A stretch of 64,000 bases of DNA from positions 434,001 to 498,000 of the forward strand of contig CAMJGD010000001.1 in NCBI GenBank assembly GCA_946405135.1. The letters run 5' to 3'. The notes below the pieces were generated by a model. It was not told where the DNA came from. It did no database searches and saw only the letters and a program-made list of their open reading frames with translations. Both the position numbers and the translations under genes were made by a program. Of this stretch, positions 21,592 to 49,434 are shown in pieces. The stretch's first letter is position 1. Each line of letters opens with the position of its first letter. The DNA comes from an uncultured Clostridiaceae bacterium. GTDB taxonomy: Bacteria; Bacillota; Clostridia; Clostridiales; Clostridiaceae.

Positions 21592-24500
21592 TTATTGAGC
21601 TGCAAGTTTCTTATAAGTTTCTAATCTTTCTTTAGCATCTTTTTCAGTTTTAGCAAATAATTCTTCTGCTATATCTGGGAATGACTTCTGTAATGAAGCA
21701 TATCTTACTTCTCCTAATAAGAAGTCTCTGAAAGATGCAGTTGGTTCTTTTGAATCTAAGGAGAATGGATTCTTTCCGCTATCTTTTAGTGTTGGGTTAT
21801 ATCTATATAGAGCCCAATATCCACATTCAACAGCTTTTTTAGATTCTAACTGGCTGTTACCCATACCAGCTTTTAATCCATGGTTTATACATGGAGCATA
21901 TGCTATTATCAAAGATGGTCCTTCATAAGCTTCAGCCTCAGCTATAGCTTTTAGTGCCTGATTCTTATCTGCTCCCATGGATATTTGAGCTACATATACA
22001 TAACCATAGCTCATAGCCATCATACCAAGGTCTTTCTTCTTAGTTCTCTTACCTGATGCAGCAAACTTAGCTATTGCAGCAGTTGGAGTGGATTTTGAAG
22101 ACTGTCCACCTGTATTTGAGTAAACTTCTGTATCAAATACAAGAACATTTATATCTTCTCCTGAAGCAAGAACATGATCTAGTCCGCCATATCCTATATC
22201 GTAAGCCCAACCATCTCCACCGAATACCCAGTGAGATCTCTTGGTTAAGAAATCTTTATTCTTTAATATCTCTTCTACGAATTCATTCTTATTTTCTTTT
22301 TCTAAAGCAGCAACTACTTTCTTTGCTCTATCTCTTGTACCTTCTCCGCTATTTATATGCTCTAACCAGTCATTTAATACTGCTTTAGCGCTTTCGCTTA
22401 TATCACTAGCTACAGCATTTTTAACTGTTTCAGCTAATTTTTCTCTTATAGCATTAACACCTAAGAACATACCCATTCCAAATTCAGCATTATCTTCAAA
22501 TAATGAGTTAGCCCAAGCTGGACCATAGCCTTCATGGTTCTTAGTGTATGGCATTGAAGGAGCAGATCCTCCCCAAATAGATGAACATCCTGTAGCATTT
22601 GCTACCATCATTCTATCTCCAAATAATTGAGTTACAAGCTTAGCATATGGAGTTTCTCCACAGCCTGCACAAGCTCCTGAGAACTCAAGAAGTGGCTGTT
22701 CAAATTGGCTTCCCTTTACGGAATTCTTGCCCATTGGGTTAGCCTTTGGTGATAACGCTACTGCATAATCCCAATTTCCACTTTCATGCAATTGAGTATC
22801 TAAAGGTTTCATTACTAATGCTTTTTCAGGTGCTGGACAGACTTGAGCACAGTTTCCACAGCCTGTACAATCTAATGGACTTATCTGAATTGCAAAGTTT
22901 AATCCTTCAAAAGTTTTTCCTCCAACTGCTTTCTTACTTCTGAAAGTTTCTGGAGCATTTTTAACTTCTTCCTCATTTAATAAGAATGGTCTTATTGCAG
23001 CATGAGGACATACATATGAACACTGATTACACTGTATACATTTATCTATCTGCCATTCAGGAACATTTATAGCTATTCCTCTCTTTTCATAAGCAGCTGT
23101 TCCGTTTTGGAATGTTCCATTTTCCATACCATTAAATGCACTTACAGGAAGTTTATCTCCTTCAAGTCTATTCATTGGCTCAACTATATTCTTTATGAAT
23201 TTTGGAACTTCTTTCTCTGCTTTTGTGTCTGTATCTACAGCATTTTTCCAGTCTGCAGGAACTTCTATCTTAACTAATGATTCAATTCCTTTATCTATAG
23301 CAGCATGGTTCATGTCTACAACTTTTTGTCCTTTCTTTCCATAGGACTTAACCACAGCTTCTTTTAAATATTTAGTAGCATCTTCTATTGGAATTATGTT
23401 TGCTAATTGGAAGAATGCTGACTGCATTATCATGTTTATTCTTCCACCTAATCCAATTTCCTGTGCTATCTTAACAGCATTTAATGTATAGAATTGAATG
23501 TTGTTTTCAGCTATATATTTCTTATAGGAAGCTGGTAATTTTTCATTTAATTCTTCTGGAGTCCAGATAGTGTTAAGTAAGAACTTTCCACCGTTCTTTA
23601 ATCCATCAAGCACAAAATATTTGAAAACATAAGCTTGGTTATGACAAGCTATGAAATCTGCTTTGTTTATTAAATATGGGGATTTGATTGGTGTTTTACC
23701 AAATCTTAAGTGAGAAACTGTTACTCCACCAGACTTCTTAGAGTCATAAGCAAAGTACCCTTGAGCATACATGTCTGTATGGTCACCTATTATCTTTATA
23801 GCACTCTTGTTAGCTCCAACAGTACCATCGGATCCAAGTCCCCAGAACTTACATGCCTTAGTTCCTTCTGGAGTAGTATCTATATCACATTCTGGTAATG
23901 GAAGTGATTTATTAGTAACATCATCAACTATAGCTATAGTAAATCCATCCATTGGTTCATCTTTAGCTAAGTTTTCATATACACTTACTATATGAGCTGG
24001 AACAGTATCTTTTGATCCAAGTCCATATCTTCCTCCAACTATTACTGGAGCATTTTCTTTTCCATAGAATGCATTTTTAACATCTAGGTATAATGGTTCT
24101 CCAGCAGCACCTGGCTCTTTAGTTCTATCAAGAACAGCTATCTTCTTAACTGAAGCTGGTATAACCTTTAATAAATGTTCAATAGAGAATGGTCTGTACA
24201 ATCTTACCTTAACTAGTCCAACTTTATTGCCATTTGCATTTAAATGATCTATAGTTTCTTCTATTAAGTCAGTTACAGAACCCATTGCTATGATTACTCT
24301 GTCTGCATCTGGTGCTCCATAGTAATCGAAACAATGATATTCTCTTCCAGTTAATTTAGTTATTTCAGCCATATAGCTTTCAACTATTGCTGGAACTGCT
24401 TCATAGAATTTGTTAACTGCTTCTCTTTCCTGGAAATATATATCTGGATTTTGAGCTGTTCCTCTTGTTACTGGATGATCTGGGTTTAGAGCATCTCTTC

Positions 24501-25107
24501 TGAATGCTTCTACTGCATCCATATCGCAAAGTTTAGCAAGCTCATCATATTCTAAAACTTCTACTTTTTGTATTTCATGAGAAGTTCTAAATCCATCAAA
24601 GAAGTTTAAGAATGGTATTTTTGATTTAATAGCAGTTAAATGAGCAACTGCAGATAAATCCATAACTTCCTGTACTGATCCTTCAGCAAGCATTGCAAAA
24701 CCAGTCTGTCTTGCTGCCATAACGTCTTGATGATCACCAAATATATTTAAAGAACTTGTAGCAAGTGCTCTAGCAGATACATGGAATACTCCTGGAAGTA
24801 ATTCTCCAGATATCTTATACATATTTGGAATCATAAGTAATAATCCTTGAGATGCTGTAAAAGTTGTTGTTAATGCTCCTGCCTGTAAGGAACCATGTAC
24901 TGCACCAGCAGCACCTGCTTCTGACTGCATCTCCATTACCTTAACAGTTTGTCCAAATATATTTTTTCTTCCTTGAGCTGTCCACTCATCAATGTTTTCT
25001 GCCATTGGTGATGATGGTGTAATAGGATAAATAGCCGCTACATCAGTAAAAGCATAGGCAATATGTGCTGCAGCAGTATTTCCATCCATTGTTTTCATAT
25101 TTCTCAT
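21592..25107 (-). CDS. nifJ: Pyruvate:ferredoxin (flavodoxin) oxidoreductase
   Basis: Converts pyruvate and CoA to acetyl-CoA and CO2 while reducing ferredoxin or flavodoxin, the central oxidative step of clostridial fermentation. Single-chain homodimer type, 1171 residues. It has the N-terminal pyruvate-binding domain (AAAHIAYAFTDVAAIYPITP), the CoA-binding region and two ferredoxin-type [4Fe-4S] motifs (CIQCNQCSYVCPH; CTGCGNCAQVCP). The cluster site ACAGCGETPYAKL and the TPP site (GDGWAYDIGYGGLDHVL; FDTEVYSNTGGQ) follow. SD GAGAGG. A flavodoxin gene, its possible electron acceptor, lies upstream in the same direction. Confidence 0.98.
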   Translation of the reverse strand: MRNMKTMDGNTAAAHIAYAFTDVAAIYPITPSSPMAENIDEWTAQGRKNIFGQTVKVMEMQSEAGAAGAVHGSLQAGALTTTFTASQGLLLMIPNMYKISGELLPGVFHVSARALATSSLNIFGDHQDVMAARQTGFAMLAEGSVQEVMDLSAVAHLTAIKSKIPFLNFFDGFRTSHEIQKVEVLEYDELAKLCDMDAVEAFRRDALNPDHPVTRGTAQNPDIYFQEREAVNKFYEAVPAIVESYMAEITKLTGREYHCFDYYGAPDADRVIIAMGSVTDLIEETIDHLNANGNKVGLVKVRLYRPFSIEHLLKVIPASVKKIAVLDRTKEPGAAGEPLYLDVKNAFYGKENAPVIVGGRYGLGSKDTVPAHIVSVYENLAKDEPMDGFTIAIVDDVTNKSLPLPECDIDTTPEGTKACKFWGLGSDGTVGANKSAIKIIGDHTDMYAQGYFAYDSKKSGGVTVSHLRFGKTPIKSPYLINKADFIACHNQAYVFKYFVLDGLKNGGKFLLNTIWTPEELNEKLPASYKKYIAENNIQFYTLNAVKIAQEIGLGGRINMIMQSAFFQLANIIPIEDATKYLKEAVVKSYGKKGQKVVDMNHAAIDKGIESLVKIEVPADWKNAVDTDTKAEKEVPKFIKNIVEPMNRLEGDKLPVSAFNGMENGTFQNGTAAYEKRGIAINVPEWQIDKCIQCNQCSYVCPHAAIRPFLLNEEEVKNAPETFRSKKAVGGKTFEGLNFAIQISPLDCTGCGNCAQVCPAPEKALVMKPLDTQLHESGNWDYAVALSPKANPMGKNSVKGSQFEQPLLEFSGACAGCGETPYAKLVTQLFGDRMMVANATGCSSIWGGSAPSMPYTKNHEGYGPAWANSLFEDNAEFGMGMFLGVNAIREKLAETVKNAVASDISESAKAVLNDWLEHINSGEGTRDRAKKVVAALEKENKNEFVEEILKNKDFLTKRSHWVFGGDGWAYDIGYGGLDHVLASGEDINVLVFDTEVYSNTGGQSSKSTPTAAIAKFAASGKRTKKKDLGMMAMSYGYVYVAQISMGADKNQALKAIAEAEAYEGPSLIIAYAPCINHGLKAGMGNSQLESKKAVECGYWALYRYNPTLKDSGKNPFSLDSKEPTASFRDFLLGEVRYASLQKSFPDIAEELFAKTEKDAKERLETYKKLAAQ

Positions 25108-25193
25108 AGCTTCTGACCTCTCTTTCGATTTATTGATTGTGTAAATTGTATATAAATTTATTTAATTAAGCAAATTTAATTATTTACATGGCA

Positions 25194-25226
25194 TTTAGCT
25201 TTAAAAGACCCGCCTTTAAAGCTAAA
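25194..25226 (-). promoter_or_regulatory. Stem-loop in the nifJ leader
   Basis: Arms TTTAGCTTTAAA and TTTAAAGCTAAA (12 bp, perfect) around a GC-rich loop (GGCGGGTCT on the minus strand). It lies between the nifJ promoter and start codon, with no T-run, so it is not a standard terminator. It could be an operator, an RNA-stability element or a translation control; no known family recognised. Confidence 0.5.
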
Positions 25227-25266
25227 CATCAAAATGTCAATGCTTAAAATTAAATCACAATATTAT

Positions 25267-25295
25267 ATTATAATAGATTGTTAAAAAATTGTCTA
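25267..25295 (-). promoter_or_regulatory. Candidate nifJ promoter (sigma-A)
   Basis: Minus strand: TAGACA (25295-25290), 17 bases, TATAAT (25272-25267). The -10 is perfect and the -35 differs from TTGACA by one base. It starts right after the flavodoxin stop and gives nifJ a leader of about 150 nt. Confidence 0.75.
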
Positions 25296-25304
25296 ATATC
25301 ATTG

Positions 25305-25730
25305 TTACTGTGCTAATATCTTACCTAGCTCTTTTGCCTTTGCTAATTCATCGTTACTTGGTGATTCTTTTACAGCTAAATCTCCTATAACATCGAATCC
25401 ATATTCCTTCATTCTTACTGTCCAATCCTTTATGAATTGTCCCTCATCCCAACCATAAGATCCAAAAAGAACTAACTTTTTGCCATTGTTAGGTAATAGC
25501 TTGAATTGATTAATAAATGGTTCCATCTCTAACTGTTCAATCCTGTTATTGTCCATAGATGGACTTCCAAAAGCAACAGCATCTGCTGAGGTTACATCTT
25601 CCACCTTAGCTTCTGATACTATTTTTATGTTTACATCTGCTCCTGCTTCTTTTGCACCTTTTGAAATGTGATCTGCCAAAACTTCTACATTTCCTCCATT
25701 GCTCCAATAAATAATTGCTACTTTTTTCAT
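25305..25730 (-). CDS. Flavodoxin
   Basis: Small FMN-binding electron carrier of 141 residues. The phosphate-binding loop is IIYWSNGGNVEVLAD, a variant of the usual T/S-x-T-G-x-T with Asn-Gly-Gly, as in short-chain clostridial flavodoxins. FMN-flanking loops GSPSMDNNRIEQ and FGSYGWDEGQF are clear. It can replace ferredoxin as acceptor of pyruvate:ferredoxin oxidoreductase under iron limitation, consistent with its place just upstream of nifJ. SD GAGGTGAG. Confidence 0.95.
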   Translation of the reverse strand: MKKVAIIYWSNGGNVEVLADHISKGAKEAGADVNIKIVSEAKVEDVTSADAVAFGSPSMDNNRIEQLEMEPFINQFKLLPNNGKKLVLFGSYGWDEGQFIKDWTVRMKEYGFDVIGDLAVKESPSNDELAKAKELGKILAQ

Positions 25731-43708: not shown

Positions 43709-44515
43709 ATGAAAAAGAATGTATATTTAATTATAACTGTAGTCTTATGCTTAACACTTTTTGCAGGTTGCGGTAAAAAAGATGCATCAAAGGATAAAAA
43801 GGAATTAGTAGTTGGAATGGAACTGGCATATCCGCCTTTTGAGACAATAGATGAAAAAGGTAATCCTACAGGTATAAGCGTAGAGCTAGCAAAAGATCTT
43901 GGTAAATACTTAGGTAAAGAAATAAGAATAGAAAACATGGCTTATAATGGTCTTTTACCTTCCCTTGAATCAAAAAAAATAGATATAATAATATCTTCCA
44001 TGACTATAACACCGGAAAGGCAAAAATCTATAGATTTTTCAGAGCCTTATGCTAAAACCGCTCTAGCACTATTAATAAATAAAAATTCACCGGTTAATGA
44101 GTCTAAAGATCTAAATGTCAAAGGTAGAAAAATAGCCGTTAAAAAAGGAACTACAGGTCATATGTATGCAGAAAAAAATCTTAAAAATGCTGAAATAATG
44201 GTTTTTGATAAGGAAAGTGCCTGCGTACTAGAGGTTGTACAAGGAAAGGCAGATGCTTTTATTTATGATCAGATGACTATATATAAAAACTGGCAGCAGT
44301 ATAAAGATTCTACAAAAGCTAATCTAAATCCCATAGCAAATAATTTTGAAAACTGGGGTATAGGCATTAGAAAAAATGATGATGAATTAAAAAATCAGAT
44401 TAATAAATTTTTAGAGGATTATAAAAAGAATGGCGGCTTTGAAAAGTTAGGAGATAAATATTTATCTGACCAGAAAAAGACTTTTAAAGAATTAGGTATA
44501 CCATTTTTCTTCTAA
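43709..44515 (+). CDS. Amino-acid ABC transporter substrate-binding lipoprotein
   Basis: Family 3 solute-binding protein of 268 residues. N-terminal lipoprotein signal with the lipobox LFAG-Cys21, so it is anchored on the outer face of the membrane. Conserved VVGMELAYPPFETIDEKGN start of the mature domain, then SMTITPERQKSIDFSEPYA and VKKGTTGHMYAEKN. The family binds polar amino acids (Gln, Arg, Cys and others); the specificity is not readable from sequence. Followed by permease and ATPase genes after a terminator-like hairpin. Confidence 0.95.
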   Translation: MKKNVYLIITVVLCLTLFAGCGKKDASKDKKELVVGMELAYPPFETIDEKGNPTGISVELAKDLGKYLGKEIRIENMAYNGLLPSLESKKIDIIISSMTITPERQKSIDFSEPYAKTALALLINKNSPVNESKDLNVKGRKIAVKKGTTGHMYAEKNLKNAEIMVFDKESACVLEVVQGKADAFIYDQMTIYKNWQQYKDSTKANLNPIANNFENWGIGIRKNDDELKNQINKFLEDYKKNGGFEKLGDKYLSDQKKTFKELGIPFFF

Positions 44516-44545
44516 AATTTATATAAAATTAAATATGTACATGCC

Positions 44546-44573
44546 AGCACAGAAAATTCTATTTTTCTGTGCT
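44546..44573 (+). terminator. Intra-operon terminator after the binding-protein gene
   Basis: AGCACAGAAAA / TTTTCTGTGCT (11 bp), then ATTTATTC, 30 bp after the stop codon and 35 bp before the permease start. It probably works as a partial terminator, yielding more binding protein than membrane components, as in other such operons. Confidence 0.75.
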
Positions 44574-44608
44574 ATTTATTCAAAATTTTTTTGAAAGGAC
44601 TAATTTAC

Positions 44609-45403
44609 ATGAACAATAAAAAAAATAATATTTTCTTTAGAAATGAAAACAGTGAACATTTAACCAAAACACAAAAAATCATAAATATATCTTTGGTTTT
44701 ACTAGCTCTGATTTTAATACTTATATATTCCTTTAATAAATTAGATTATAATATGAGACTTGAAACCATATATCAATATAGACACAGATTTTTCACTGGA
44801 TTTTTGATGACCATAGCTATAAGTTTCTTTGCTTTAATATTAAGTTTAATCATAGGAACATTATTTGCCTTTGCAAGCAAATCTAAATTTCTCCCTCTTT
44901 ACTATTTAAGCAGAGTTTATGTAGAACTTATAAGAGGTACTCCTCTTTTGGTACAAATATATGTATTTTACTATATCATAGCTACAGCTTTTAATATGGA
45001 AAACAAATATGTGCTTGGAGTAATAATATTGTCCGTATTTACTGGTGCCTATGTATGTGAAATTTTAAGAGCCGGCATTGAAAGTATAGATAAAACCCAA
45101 ATAGAAACTGCTCGTTCCTTGGGATTTACTACTTATCAAAGATACAAATTTATCATAATACCACAGGTAATAAAGAGGATTCTCCCTCCTTTAGCTGGCC
45201 AATTTCTTTCATTAATTAAAGATTCTTCTTTATTATCTGTAATTGCTGTAAGTGAGCTAACAAAAAATGTACAAGAAGTAGATTCCATAAATTTTGCTAC
45301 TCTTGAAAACTATATGATACTAGCCATACTATACTTAATTTTAACTTTGCCTGTATCTAATTTATCTAAAAGACTGGAAAGGAAGTTCAATTATGAAAAT
45401 TAG
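44609..45403 (+). CDS. Amino-acid ABC transporter permease
   Basis: 264-residue inner-membrane subunit of the HisMQ family with an extra hydrophilic N-terminal ~20 residues. About five helices (36-52, 72-97, 108-128, 140-165, 230-250). The EAA loop IETARSLGFTTYQRYKFIII and RGTPLLVQIYVFYY are present. The ATG at 44609 is preferred to a TTG six codons upstream, which lies in the SD region (GAAAGGA). It overlaps the ATPase gene by 11 bp. Confidence 0.94.
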   Translation: MNNKKNNIFFRNENSEHLTKTQKIINISLVLLALILILIYSFNKLDYNMRLETIYQYRHRFFTGFLMTIAISFFALILSLIIGTLFAFASKSKFLPLYYLSRVYVELIRGTPLLVQIYVFYYIIATAFNMENKYVLGVIILSVFTGAYVCEILRAGIESIDKTQIETARSLGFTTYQRYKFIIIPQVIKRILPPLAGQFLSLIKDSSLLSVIAVSELTKNVQEVDSINFATLENYMILAILYLILTLPVSNLSKRLERKFNYEN

Positions 45404-46127
45404 CATAAAAAACTTATCAAAATCTTTTGATGGAAAAGTGGTTTTAAATAATCTTAATGTGGAAGTAGAAAATTTTCACTCTTTAGCTATTATAGGTCCC
45501 TCTGGAGGCGGAAAATCTACTTTACTCAGAATAATAGCAGGACTTCAAAATCCTGATCAAGGAGAAATATATATAAATGATAATAAAATCATTTATGATG
45601 AAAAGCTATTAAAAGAGTACAGAAAAACCATAGGAGTAGTATTTCAGTCCTATAATCTTTTTCCGCACCTCACTGCTTTTGAAAATATTGTTCTTCCTTT
45701 AGTAGAAGTACATAAAATTAAAAAAGCGGAAGCTGAAAACATAACAAGCACCCTATTAAATAGATTTCAACTTTCAGAGCATGCTTATAAAAAGCCTTTA
45801 GAGCTTTCAGGCGGTCAGCAGCAAAGAGTTGCTGTAGCAAGAGCCTTAGCCACAAACTCAAAATTTTTGCTATTTGATGAACCCACTTCTGCTCTAGACC
45901 CTGAACTTACTTCAGAGGTTTTAGATATGATAAAAGAATTAGAAAATCAAGACAAAGACTTACTACTAGTAACCCATGAAATGGGCTTTGCAAGACAATC
46001 TTGCGATTATGTGTTATTCATGTATAACGGACAAGTAATAGAACAGGGTAAAAGTGAAGAACTATTTAACAACCCCAAAACTCCAGAATTAAAAAATTTT
46101 TTAAATAAAGTATTAGAATGGAGATAA
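45393..46127 (+). CDS. Amino-acid ABC transporter ATP-binding protein
   Basis: GlnQ/HisP-type ATPase of 244 residues. Walker A GPSGGGKSTLL, Q-loop VVFQSYNLFPH, signature LSGGQQQRVAVARALA, Walker B LLFDEPTSALDPE and the switch His in LLVTHEMGFARQ are all intact. Overlaps the permease gene. The set encodes one binding protein, one permease (presumably a homodimer) and one ATPase, a complete polar amino-acid importer. Confidence 0.96.
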   Translation: MKISIKNLSKSFDGKVVLNNLNVEVENFHSLAIIGPSGGGKSTLLRIIAGLQNPDQGEIYINDNKIIYDEKLLKEYRKTIGVVFQSYNLFPHLTAFENIVLPLVEVHKIKKAEAENITSTLLNRFQLSEHAYKKPLELSGGQQQRVAVARALATNSKFLLFDEPTSALDPELTSEVLDMIKELENQDKDLLLVTHEMGFARQSCDYVLFMYNGQVIEQGKSEELFNNPKTPELKNFLNKVLEWR

Positions 46128-46174: not shown

Positions 46175-46203
46175 TTGACAAATCATCTTTACCCATTTAA
46201 ATT
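46175..46203 (+). promoter_or_regulatory. Candidate promoter for the dehydratase-type pair
   Basis: TTGACA (46175-46180), 17 bases, TAAATT (46198-46203). The -35 is perfect and the -10 is 4 of 6. It lies in the 95-bp gap after the ABC ATPase gene, so the next two genes may be expressed independently of the transporter. Confidence 0.6.
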
Positions 46204-46222: not shown

Positions 46223-47485
46223 ATGGACATAATTAAAACTTATGGAAATTTGATAAAAGAAAAAATCGAAAAACCTGAAAGTGCCTTGAAACTAATAAAA
46301 TTTGGACTTTCCATGGAAAATTTAAGAGTAAATAAATTTCCTGAAAAAGATTTGCCTGAAGCTTTTCAGTACTTAAATCAGATATGCCTTAAATTCATAC
46401 TAGACCCTTTAAAAAATCCAGATAATTCTGCTTGGGTTAATCTATTTGCTCCTTCAGAACTACTGCATGCTTTTAATATATATCCTCTTTCTATAGAAGC
46501 TATGGCATCTTTTTTGTCTGGACTCATGTGTGAAGATACTTTTATAGATTATGCAGAAGAAAAAGGTATTGCTGAAACCTTATGCAGCTATCACAAAGCT
46601 TTTATTGGCATATCAGAATCAAAGGTACTTCCAAAACCTAAATTTGCTCTTACTACTACCAGCATCTGTGATGCTAATACCAATACTTTTAGATATTTAT
46701 CAGCTAAGCAAGGAATACCTTATTTTATTATAGATGTTCCCTATGAATATTCTAAATGTAGTGAAGAATATGTAGTAAAACAGCTTAAAGAAGCCATTTT
46801 AATGATGGAAAATCTTCTAGATAAAAAATTAGATATGGACTTATTAAAAGAAATTATTCAAAGAGAAAATGAAACCACTCTTTACAGAAAAGACTACATA
46901 AAAAATATTGGCAAAAAATATTTTAAAACTACTTTAACACTTGAAATGTACATGCTTTTTACCACTCATATGTTTATGGGTACTGAAGAAACTTTAGAAT
47001 TCTTTAAAAGGTTATCTAAAGAAGTTCAAAATTCTGAAGGGAAAAAAGGTTTAAGTATCTTTTGGGTTCATCTCATACCTTTCTATCATGATATATTAAA
47101 AGGCTATTTCAATTTGAATCCTAAATATCAGCTTTTAGGTTGTGACCTTAATTTTGACTACCTAGAGGAAATGGACTACACAAAACCTTTAAACTCTTTA
47201 GCAAGAAAAATTATACTAAATCATGGTAATGGATATTATACTAGAAAAATAGATTCTCTAATAAATATTTTTAAAGATTTAAATCCTGATGCAGTAATAA
47301 ATTTCTGCCACTGGGGCTGCAAACAATCCAGCGGCGGTGTAATGCTTTTAAAAGAAGAAATGATGAAAAGAGGTATACCTTTTCTCTCTATAGATGGTGA
47401 TGGTGTTGACAGAAGAAACAGTCATTCTGGCCAAATTCAAACCAGATTAGAAGCATTTTTAGAAATGATAGAAAAAAATAATTAG
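46223..47485 (+). CDS. 2-Hydroxyacyl-CoA dehydratase/double-cubane-cluster family subunit
   Basis: 420-residue protein of the HgdB/BcrC superfamily, whose members use [4Fe-4S] or double-cubane clusters for ATP-driven, low-potential reductions such as alpha-hydroxyacyl-CoA dehydration. Seen: FAPSELLHAFNIYPLSIEA (domain 1); TTTSICDANTNTF with Cys149; Cys307; and FCHWGCKQSSGG (Cys362, Cys366), leading to the family's C-terminal GQIQTRLEAFLEM. An Asn stands where relatives usually have a Cys four residues before the Pro of the first motif. No clear CoA-substrate signature; substrate unknown. SD GAGGTG. Followed by the fused activase. Confidence 0.85.
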   Translation: MDIIKTYGNLIKEKIEKPESALKLIKFGLSMENLRVNKFPEKDLPEAFQYLNQICLKFILDPLKNPDNSAWVNLFAPSELLHAFNIYPLSIEAMASFLSGLMCEDTFIDYAEEKGIAETLCSYHKAFIGISESKVLPKPKFALTTTSICDANTNTFRYLSAKQGIPYFIIDVPYEYSKCSEEYVVKQLKEAILMMENLLDKKLDMDLLKEIIQRENETTLYRKDYIKNIGKKYFKTTLTLEMYMLFTTHMFMGTEETLEFFKRLSKEVQNSEGKKGLSIFWVHLIPFYHDILKGYFNLNPKYQLLGCDLNFDYLEEMDYTKPLNSLARKIILNHGNGYYTRKIDSLINIFKDLNPDAVINFCHWGCKQSSGGVMLLKEEMMKRGIPFLSIDGDGVDRRNSHSGQIQTRLEAFLEMIEKNN

Positions 47486-47509
47486 TACAAAGCTTAAGAA
47501 GGTGAATTT

Positions 47510-49327
47510 ATGATAGGTTATGTATGCAAATATACTCCTATAGAAATATTTCAATGTTTTGATGAAGATCCTTTAAAATTGCAGCCTGAAGTTTCAAGTT
47601 TTGATATAGCAGACTCTATTACTCATTCAACCCTGTGCACATATTCAAAAGCAGTAATTGAATATGTGCTGGATAATAAAATAGATAAATTAGTGCTTAC
47701 TAATTGTTGTGACAGCATAAAGAGAAGTTATGATGTACTTAAAGAAAAGGAAGATATAAAATTTATTCACTTTATGGATTTACCAAGAAAACAAGACCCT
47801 CTTTCCATAAATAAATATAAAGATGAAATAAAAAAGCTTATAAAAGCTTATGAAGAATTTTCAGGACTTAAATTCGATTTTAACAAATTTATTTCACTGA
47901 TAGATGCCAAAAGTCCTTTAGATAGTTCTAATGATAAATCCTCATTAAATCTTGCTCTTATGGGTGCTAGGTCTCCCGAGTTTATAAACCGCATGCTGGA
48001 AAGTCATTCAATAAAATCTAGTTATGATTTTACCTGTACCTCTCCTGCTATGAGAAATATGAACTTTGCAGCTAACTATAAAAATCTGTACTCTTCAAAT
48101 TCCAGTAACTATGAAGATGAAATACTATATAGCTATGCAGAAAGTCTTCTTAATATATATCCTTGTATGAGAATGAGTGCTAATGAAAGACGATACAAAG
48201 CATTAGATAAAGCCATAGAAAACATTGATGGTATCATATATCACACTGTAAAATTTTGTGATAACTATTCTTTTGAATATGCATATTTAAAAGATAAGTA
48301 TGATGTTCCTATATTAAAGATAGAAACAGATTATACGGAGCAAAGTGAAGGTCAGATAAAAACCAGATTAGAAGCTTTCATAGAATCCATAGAGGCTAAA
48401 AAGAAAAAAGATTCATTAAATATATCAAAAGGGCCTACTGTATGCAGCATGTGTAAAGGAGAAAATTCTCATTCTAACCATGAAGACTGGAAGAGCTATA
48501 ATATAAAAGCTATGCCATTTATGAGTACAGAATACATTTTAGGCATAGACAGTGGTTCTACTTCCACCAATGCAGTGATAATTGATGAAAATGAAAATAT
48601 TGTATCTTATGCTGTGGTAAGAACTGGTGCAAAAAGCATAGAAAGTGCAAAAAAAGCTTTTCATCTAGTATTGGAAAAAGCTCATTTAAAAGATGAAGAC
48701 ATATCCCTTATAGTATCTACGGGTTATGGAAGGATAAGTATACCCTTTGCTCATATGGATGTGACAGAAATAACCTGTCACGGTAAGGGCGCTTATCACT
48801 TAAATAAAAATGTACGCACTATCATTGATATAGGAGGCCAAGATAGCAAAGTTATAAAAATCGATGAAAGAGGCGATGTTATAGATTTTGCTATGAATGA
48901 TAAATGTGCTGCAGGTACAGGAAGATTTTTAGAAATGATGGCAAAAACTTTAGAAGTACCTTTAGACCATTTAGGAGAAGTATCTTTAAAGTGGAAGGAA
49001 GATATAAAAATAACCAATATGTGTTCTGTATTTGCTGAATCTGAGGTAATATCCCTTATAGCTCAAAACAAAGAAAAATCAGACATAATTCATGGACTTC
49101 ATAATTCCATATCAAATAGAATTGTTTCTCTTTTAGGAAGGACAGGTAAAAAAGGTGCTTACATGATGACTGGCGGGGTAGCTAAAAACCTGGGAGTAAT
49201 AAAAGCCTTAGAAGAAAAACTTGGAGAAAAGATATATGTATATAAACAACCTGAAATTGTAGGGGCTTTAGGTGCAGCTTTAATAGGCTATGAAACCATG
49301 GTATCTAAAATTAAAAAAGCTGAATAG
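47510..49327 (+). CDS. Fusion of a dehydratase-type subunit with an ASKHA-type activase
   Basis: 605 residues, two parts. Residues ~1-295 are a shortened HgdB/BcrC-like subunit: VCKYTPIEIFQCF (Cys6), LTNCCDSIKRSYDVL (Cys66/67), VKFCDNYSFEYAYL (Cys250), ETDYTEQSEGQIKTRLEAF. A linker carries a CxxC (VCSMC, 312-315). Residues ~342-600 are a BadF/HgdC-type ATPase: GIDSGSTSTNAVII, IVSTGYGR, IDIGGQDSKVI, NDKCAAGTGRFLE (Cys466), TNMCSVFAESEV (Cys505). The last two Cys would bridge the inter-subunit [4Fe-4S] cluster. 24 bp after its partner. The function is inferred: ATP-dependent electron injection into the 420-residue protein and/or its own first half. Confidence 0.87.
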   Translation: MIGYVCKYTPIEIFQCFDEDPLKLQPEVSSFDIADSITHSTLCTYSKAVIEYVLDNKIDKLVLTNCCDSIKRSYDVLKEKEDIKFIHFMDLPRKQDPLSINKYKDEIKKLIKAYEEFSGLKFDFNKFISLIDAKSPLDSSNDKSSLNLALMGARSPEFINRMLESHSIKSSYDFTCTSPAMRNMNFAANYKNLYSSNSSNYEDEILYSYAESLLNIYPCMRMSANERRYKALDKAIENIDGIIYHTVKFCDNYSFEYAYLKDKYDVPILKIETDYTEQSEGQIKTRLEAFIESIEAKKKKDSLNISKGPTVCSMCKGENSHSNHEDWKSYNIKAMPFMSTEYILGIDSGSTSTNAVIIDENENIVSYAVVRTGAKSIESAKKAFHLVLEKAHLKDEDISLIVSTGYGRISIPFAHMDVTEITCHGKGAYHLNKNVRTIIDIGGQDSKVIKIDERGDVIDFAMNDKCAAGTGRFLEMMAKTLEVPLDHLGEVSLKWKEDIKITNMCSVFAESEVISLIAQNKEKSDIIHGLHNSISNRIVSLLGRTGKKGAYMMTGGVAKNLGVIKALEEKLGEKIYVYKQPEIVGALGAALIGYETMVSKIKKAE

Positions 49328-49336
49328 ATTTAAATA

Positions 49337-49395
49337 AAAAAACCTCCTTATGACTATACCACGGAATAACCGCTGACTATTTCTAAGGGGGTTTT
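49337..49395. terminator. Bidirectional terminator between the activase fusion and helicase genes
   Basis: AAAACCTCCTTA pairs with TAAGGGGGTTTT around a ~35-base apical part that contains a small CGG/CCG stem and two copies of TGACTAT. T-runs follow on both strands. It lies between the convergent genes ending at 49327 and 49435. Confidence 0.85.
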
Positions 49396-49434
49396 AAACG
49401 CTTTATTATATATCGATAATTACTTCATTATATG

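Follow-up and report, generated by a model that had tools for sequence, protein, structure and literature searches.

Within a 64,000-nucleotide stretch of DNA from an uncultured Clostridiaceae bacterium (assembly GCA_946405135.1, contig CAMJGD010000001.1, positions 434,001 to 498,000; hereafter the window), we identified a tandem pair of genes on the + strand, A (46223-47485, 420 amino acids [aa]) and B (47510-49327, 605 aa). The pair probably encodes an ATP-driven reductase that is self-contained and free-standing, a member of the superfamily that comprises class I benzoyl-coenzyme A (CoA) reductases (BCR-I), 2-hydroxyacyl-CoA dehydratases (HAD) and double-cubane cluster proteins (DCCP); an activase tethered within B would load a double cubane in the same chain, which in turn would feed a [4Fe-4S] site in A. 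A redox enzyme of this type normally consists of three or four proteins, namely, two iron-sulfur subunits and an ATP-powered electron pump. Here, two genes suffice because the pump is joined to one of the iron-sulfur subunits. A and the fused B-activase represent a real, conserved and widespread branch of a known superfamily, and this branch is without a characterised member. Literature searches on the fusion or on YjiL/YjiM function returned nothing useful and no account of an A plus B-activase system, with the DCCP papers (PNAS 2018, 2022; ChemBioChem 2020), which may mention such fusions, lying outside their coverage.

Domain architecture and cluster ligands

A prediction made from the sequence before this analysis had described a 420-residue subunit followed by a 605-residue chain joining a dehydratase-like part to an activase. 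Both open reading frames were found exactly as claimed, each with a plausible ribosome-binding site ahead of it, and the matches to Pfam and TIGR00241 agreed with the description. Residues 74 to 416 of A matched the HGD-D family (Pfam PF06050, 214.8 bits). The AlphaFold model of A (predicted local distance difference test [pLDDT] score, 94.9) was closest in Foldseek to HadB (3o3m_A, template modeling [TM] score of 0.80), BzdO (8s02_A, 0.78) and MbdO (9g87_A, 0.77), followed by DCCPs (0.70 to 0.73). The modeled fold of A is thus that of a catalytic subunit of the BzdO/HadB type, predicted to hold one [4Fe-4S] site.

The model of B (pLDDT of 83.5 overall) consisted of two modules with a disordered join at residues 304 to 338. 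The N-terminal module (residues 1 to 300, 47510-48409) is a compact HGD-D domain of the double-cubane type that lacks the middle helical segment: its Pfam match (residues 1 to 295) was split into two stretches covering profile positions 1 to 125 and 242 to 342, and positions 126 to 241 were unmatched. Foldseek paired this module with 8s02_B (BzdN), 3o3m_B and DCCP, and the TM scores against BzdN, HadC and DCCP were modest (~0.5 to 0.6 by target), as expected because the middle helices are missing. The C-terminal module (residues 342 to 605, 48533-49327) is an ASKHA activase. Residues 344 to 593 matched BcrAD_BadFG (Pfam PF01869, 210.8 bits), and the domain scored 254.7 bits against the archerase activase model TIGR00241, over the curated cut-off of 125.4. 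Its two cluster cysteines, Cys466 (codon 48905-48907) and Cys505 (49022-49024), were invariant, which bears out the prediction of a complete activase with both cysteines. The best solved relative was MbdQ (9gai_D, E value of 2.9e-75, TM score by target of 0.94), and HgdC and HadI were also matched. Both proteins exceed the Pfam cut-off for HGD-D, and the activase is of the BadF/BcrA type and has its two cluster cysteines, which places the pair in the BCR-I/HAD/DCCP superfamily. The linker between the two modules of B (residues 301 to 341, 48410-48532) was predicted to be disordered and differed in length and sequence among homologs. In the window it contains a CxxC and several histidines (VCSMCKGENSHSNHED); a metal site at this position was rejected, as a similar VCxxC occurred only in the homologs at loci L022, L171 and L178.

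The BzdNO structure provided the reference for the cluster ligands. In BzdN, C36, C73, C100, C263, C293 and C327 hold an [8Fe-9S] double cubane, and in BzdO, C95, C128 and C380 hold the catalytic [4Fe-4S]-OH2 cluster, with Glu65 and His131 adjoining the bound water (PMC11971306). When B was aligned with BzdN, cysteines occupied all six double-cubane positions: Cys6 (codon 47525-47527), Cys43 (47636-47638), Cys67 (47708-47710), Cys176 (48035-48037), Cys219 (48164-48166) and Cys250 (48257-48259), in the order of the BzdN residues. The original prediction, which named Cys6, 66/67 and 250, had therefore caught three of the six positions; Cys66 is an extra cysteine, invariant in the alignment of fused proteins. 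The six positions were kept in every intact fused B that was aligned and also in unfused relatives (L051, L063 and L078). In the same alignment, HadC lacked the equivalents of BzdN C36 and C263, and MbdN lacked those of C36, C263 and C293, so that the Cys176 position is missing from both. By its ligand positions, the N-terminal domain of B is predicted to be of the double-cubane ([8Fe-9S]) type. A has the three catalytic-cluster cysteines only, Cys121 (codon 46583-46585), Cys149 (46667-46669) and Cys366 (47318-47320), which align with BzdO C95, C128 and C380, respectively. They were invariant in 29 sequences, together with Glu92, Asp150 and other residues. Glu92 (46496-46498) aligns with BzdO Glu65, the acid next to the cluster-bound water (PMC11971306), and this acid was present in every A as well as in HadB and MbdO. 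The position of BzdO His131 is taken by Asn152 in A, which was invariant across the fused clade; of the positions compared with a view to a CoA-binding channel, that of Tyr97 was kept in this distant alignment, and those of Gln274 and Tyr298 were not.

Distribution and phylogeny of the fused pair

The fused gene was present as one open frame of ~550 to 620 aa in 34 of 207 Clostridiaceae genomes and, in a wider sample of the class, in 9 of 391 genomes (own genome counted). Named carriers include Clostridium ganghwense, C. luticellarii, C. tyrobutyricum, C. tepidiprofundi and C. bovifaecis, and beyond the Clostridiaceae, the fusion was found in Lachnospiraceae, Family XIII, Coriobacteriia (Ellagibacter and Curtanaerobium) and one metagenome-assembled genome of a spirochaete. 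Wherever the locus was complete enough to judge, A stood directly upstream of B-activase, and this order was constant. Disrupted copies were seen in two Clostridiaceae genomes (L175 and L183), with B broken in L183. At L175:8153-11140, A is frameshifted and B and the activase lie in separate frames, which could reflect secondary fission, decay or an assembly error.

In a maximum-likelihood tree of A with HadB, BzdO, MbdO and DCCP as references, the fused A proteins formed one clade (support, 100/100). The A subunits encoded in unfused three-gene sets were nearest to them (95/82), and the fused A stood apart from HadB, BzdO, MbdO and DCCP (98/95). Constrained groupings of fused A were rejected by the approximately unbiased (AU) test for HadB (p-AU of 1e-5), MbdO (0.0008) and BzdO (0.026); the BzdO test is the weakest of the three because of the long branches of the reference sequences. 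Across the trees, full-length characterised HgdA/B, FldB/C, LcdA/B and BcrB/C were not all represented. Quick trees were used for the other two modules. In these, fused B formed one clade (SH-like approximate likelihood ratio test [SH-aLRT], 100) that did not group with DCCP, and the fused activases likewise formed one clade (100). These two clades are in keeping with one fusion event that later spread vertically and laterally. With respect to the dehydratase-type halves, the phylogeny set A apart from HadB, BzdO, MbdO and DCCP; the clades of B and the activase likewise lay outside the HadBC, MbdNO, BzdNO and DCCP systems, and the B tree gave no firm sister group to fused B.

The family models agreed with the trees. 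Against the DCCP model NF040772 (cut-off of 350 bits), B scored 104 bits and A 69 bits, and A has three ligand cysteines in place of the six that define both subunits of a DCCP. Scores with the HadB and HadC equivalog models were 80 and 39 bits (cut-offs of 750 and 700), those with the bzdN and bzdO models were 20 and 61 bits (cut-offs of 453.8 and 448.6), and the bcrB and bcrC models were also far under their cut-offs. Within the catalytic site of the bzd type, A has the equivalents of C95, C128, C380 and Glu65 but not that of His131. Judged by sequence, A/B is distinct from HadBC, MbdNO, BzdNO and DCCP. The idea of an uncharacterised reductase of the double-cubane type was strengthened as to the type, all six ligand positions being kept in B, but the pair is not a DCCP.

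The genome that carries the window also encodes other members of the superfamily. Two true DCCPs (L186:5320-7419, C16, and L187:7219-8385, C19) scored 521 and 532 bits against NF040772, and the one at L186 adjoins its own activase. A further HGD-D pair (L185:5829-9402, C7) has an unusually long subunit of 518 aa with no NCBIfam match and is followed by a separate activase. At L188:6466-9416 (C17), we observed an apparent split form of a giant activase-DUF2229 protein, consisting of an activase (333 aa), a weakly HGD-D-like protein of 365 aa and a DUF2229 protein with an HGD-D tail (312 aa).

Genomic neighborhood and expression signals

Upstream of A lie amino-acid ABC transporter genes (43709-46127), and downstream of B are a convergent DEAD-box helicase gene and a two-component system. 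Farther away in the window, a pyruvate:ferredoxin oxidoreductase and a flavodoxin-like open reading frame (21595-25730) are obvious general electron donors. The genes had been predicted to be separated from the transporter by a promoter of their own. A sigma-70-like candidate does exist at 46175-46203 on the + strand (TTGACA-17-TAAATT, 10 of 12 matches) and is plausible only: promoter-like sites around 46175 occurred at chance level (20, versus 20.7 +/- 4.5 in shuffled sequence), and the transporter genes had no recognisable terminator behind them, so that co-transcription of A/B with the transporter is possible. A hairpin-like sequence follows B (~49337-49400, by eye). The window gave no Rfam match to a riboswitch, and visual inspection of the sequence ahead of A/B homologs showed no evident motif.

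As the original prediction had stated, no CoA ligase, CoA-transferase, enoyl-CoA reductase or electron-transfer flavoprotein (ETF) was recognised among the neighbors scanned with Pfam or read by eye, and no benzoate genes were recognised near A/B. A survey of 30 named loci, 35 Clostridiaceae loci and 24 loci screened for unfused sets revealed no neighbor conserved beyond close relatives. The missing CoA genes are therefore weak evidence for the non-CoA substrate that the original prediction had considered, and the A/B pair looks free-standing. The amino-acid transporter was rejected as a functional partner, since it is not beside other A/B homologs. Genes for arginine biosynthesis and methylthioadenosine salvage and TtcA-like, radical S-adenosylmethionine (SAM), thiohydantoin desulfurase and lipoate/dihydrolipoyl genes were likewise discarded, each being confined to one small group. 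An activase-DUF2229 protein (1430 aa) adjoins A/B in L011 and L152 (one species) and lies near it in L018; this co-occurrence is uninformative because the family was present in 192 of 205 Clostridiaceae sampled.

Several observations concern the surroundings of related sets. Radical SAM genes flank the unfused set at L063:2815-8535 on both sides, and a related radical SAM gene lies near the sets at L130 and L137. A TtcA-like PP-loop gene (193 bits, under the cut-off of 272) stands directly ahead of an unfused B-A-activase set (L141:6767-9739), and downstream of an unfused activase-B-A set (L078:5233-10200) come a thiohydantoin-desulfurase-like (DUF917-type) gene and one that resembles AroM. 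At L039:2099-11000, a DCCP-type gene pair and an activase are found beside look-alikes (by eye) of a YedE-type transporter, a cysteine desulfurase, TusA/YedF and selenophosphate synthetase, which may tie DCCPs to selenium or sulfur.

Candidate mechanism, alternatives and known systems

From the observed domains, ligand conservation, fold, fusion and phylogeny, and by analogy with the superfamily mechanism (PMC11971306, PMC11574389), we infer the cluster types, the electron path, the stoichiometry and a preference for net reduction over dehydration. Two B chains would dimerise through their activase domains, around a shared [4Fe-4S] cluster with two cysteines from each. This dimer would accept single electrons from ferredoxin or flavodoxin, and ATP hydrolysis would lower the potential of its cluster. 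Electrons would then enter the N-terminal domain of B, where the [8Fe-9S] double cubane on its six cysteines would have a capacity of at least two; the double cubane has been argued to store at least two electrons in the reductase (PMC11971306). From there they would reach the [4Fe-4S]-OH2 site of A (C121/C149/C366), where the substrate would be reduced, with Glu92 and the cluster-bound water as the presumed proton supply. The flexible linker would keep the electron donor attached to its acceptor within a single particle, for which we predict the composition (A.B-activase)2: a [4Fe-4S] cluster shared between two activase domains requires B chains to come in pairs, which makes A2B2 the natural particle. 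The six-cysteine set favors net reduction over dehydration because the HAD dehydratases lost half of the double cubane.

Four points weigh against this reading. MbdN lacks the full set of six cysteines and yet is part of a reductase, so that the kind of cluster does not strictly dictate the kind of reaction; the His131 position is an invariant asparagine; the trees place long branches with some uncertainty; and the want of any conserved neighbor gives no hint of the substrate. A bolder version, which we regard as doubtful, would make A/B a nitrogenase-like single-particle "archerase-reductase," in which a donor covalently tethered to an electron-storing double-cubane domain reduces a small non-CoA substrate. 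Such an enzyme would lie apart from every CoA-dependent member of the superfamily and would serve strict anaerobes as a low-potential reductase for general purposes.

Among the competing explanations, the one that survives best, although we consider it unlikely, is that A/B is a 2-hydroxyacyl-CoA dehydratase of amino-acid fermentation, in which one electron would serve many turnovers, water would be eliminated and the upstream transporter would supply the substrate. The HadB-type fold of A, the amino-acid ABC transporter genes just upstream and the frequency of amino-acid fermentation in Clostridia (PMC11574389) are in keeping with this. The HadB and HadC model scores, the firm rejection of a grouping of fused A with HadB, the two cysteines that B keeps and HadC lacks, and a neighborhood in which no CoA-transferase, ligase or ETF was recognised and the transporter is not kept beside homologs all speak against it. 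An enzyme like the class I benzoyl-CoA reductases, with an aromatic or unsaturated acyl-CoA as its substrate, is still less probable. It would account for the BzdNO-like pairing of a double-cubane-type subunit with a [4Fe-4S] subunit, for MbdQ as the best solved relative of the activase and for the retention of the Glu65 and Tyr97 positions, but it conflicts with the low bzdN, bzdO, bcrB and bcrC scores, with the rejected groupings of A with BzdO and MbdO, and with the loss of His131, Gln274 and Tyr298 in the alignment. Moreover, the B-linked activases must form a homodimer, whereas MbdPQ consists of two different chains. We give very little credence to the notion that A/B reductively activates another metalloprotein, as RamA-type activators do for corrinoid proteins, and has no small-molecule substrate. 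Free-standing genes and a self-contained ATP-driven donor would suit such a role; the substrate-type [4Fe-4S] pocket and invariant Glu92 kept in A would not, and the gene positions point to no target protein. Finally, a sequencing or assembly artefact or a decaying remnant, for which the disrupted copies at L175 and L183 might speak, is already refuted by the intact frame in the Clostridiaceae, other Clostridia, Coriobacteriia and a spirochaete, with differing linkers and invariant ligand residues throughout.

The interest of A/B, which we continue to read as an ATP-driven reductase, lies in its compact architecture and in the question of its substrate. At present, enzymatic Birch reduction is limited by its restriction to CoA esters, and the physiological role of DCCPs is unclear (PMC11971306). 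A two-gene system with a built-in donor would be much simpler to express than four-subunit benzoyl-CoA reductases, is present in clostridia that can be cultured (C. tyrobutyricum, C. luticellarii and C. ganghwense) and is directly testable. The pair would show whether a double cubane with a [4Fe-4S] partner occurs outside aromatic degradation, and it raises the structural question of how a homodimeric activase works with each half tethered to its own acceptor.

A precedent for the fusion is provided by the ~1430-aa activase-DUF2229 proteins (one in the same genome), which combine an activase and a dehydratase-related domain in one chain but comprise two ASKHA repeats plus DUF2229; no A partner lies beside the copy in this genome. 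The uncharacterised unfused three-gene sets (L051, L063, L078 and L129 to L141) have neighboring A-type, B-type and activase genes, with six cysteines in B where aligned. They differ in that the activase is a separate gene and in their order, which is activase-B-A in L078 and B-A-activase in L051 and most of L131 to L141, in contrast to A followed by B-activase in the fused pairs. The 2-hydroxyacyl-CoA dehydratases HadBC-HadI and HgdAB-HgdC (3o3m, 4eht and 1hux) share the HGD-D heterodimer, the activase and, for HadB, the fold of A; their activase is separate, HadC has an incomplete cysteine set, and A does not group with HadB. DCCP:DCCP-R (6eno, 7yyl and 7yzm) likewise has a six-cysteine double-cubane domain and an activase partner. 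However, the two subunits of DCCP are identical and each holds a double cubane, whereas A/B has unlike subunits, of which A is of the three-cysteine catalytic type, and a fused activase. BzdNO(PQ), the bzd-type class I benzoyl-CoA reductase (8s02, 8s1t and 8s2r), resembles A/B in pairing the six-cysteine double-cubane BzdN with the three-cysteine [4Fe-4S]-OH2 subunit BzdO, in its ASKHA activase and in Glu65, the counterpart of Glu92. A/B differs from it in the fusion of the activase to the double-cubane subunit, in a B without the middle helical segment, in the asparagine at the His131 position, in bzd model scores far under the cut-offs and in forming a clade of its own.

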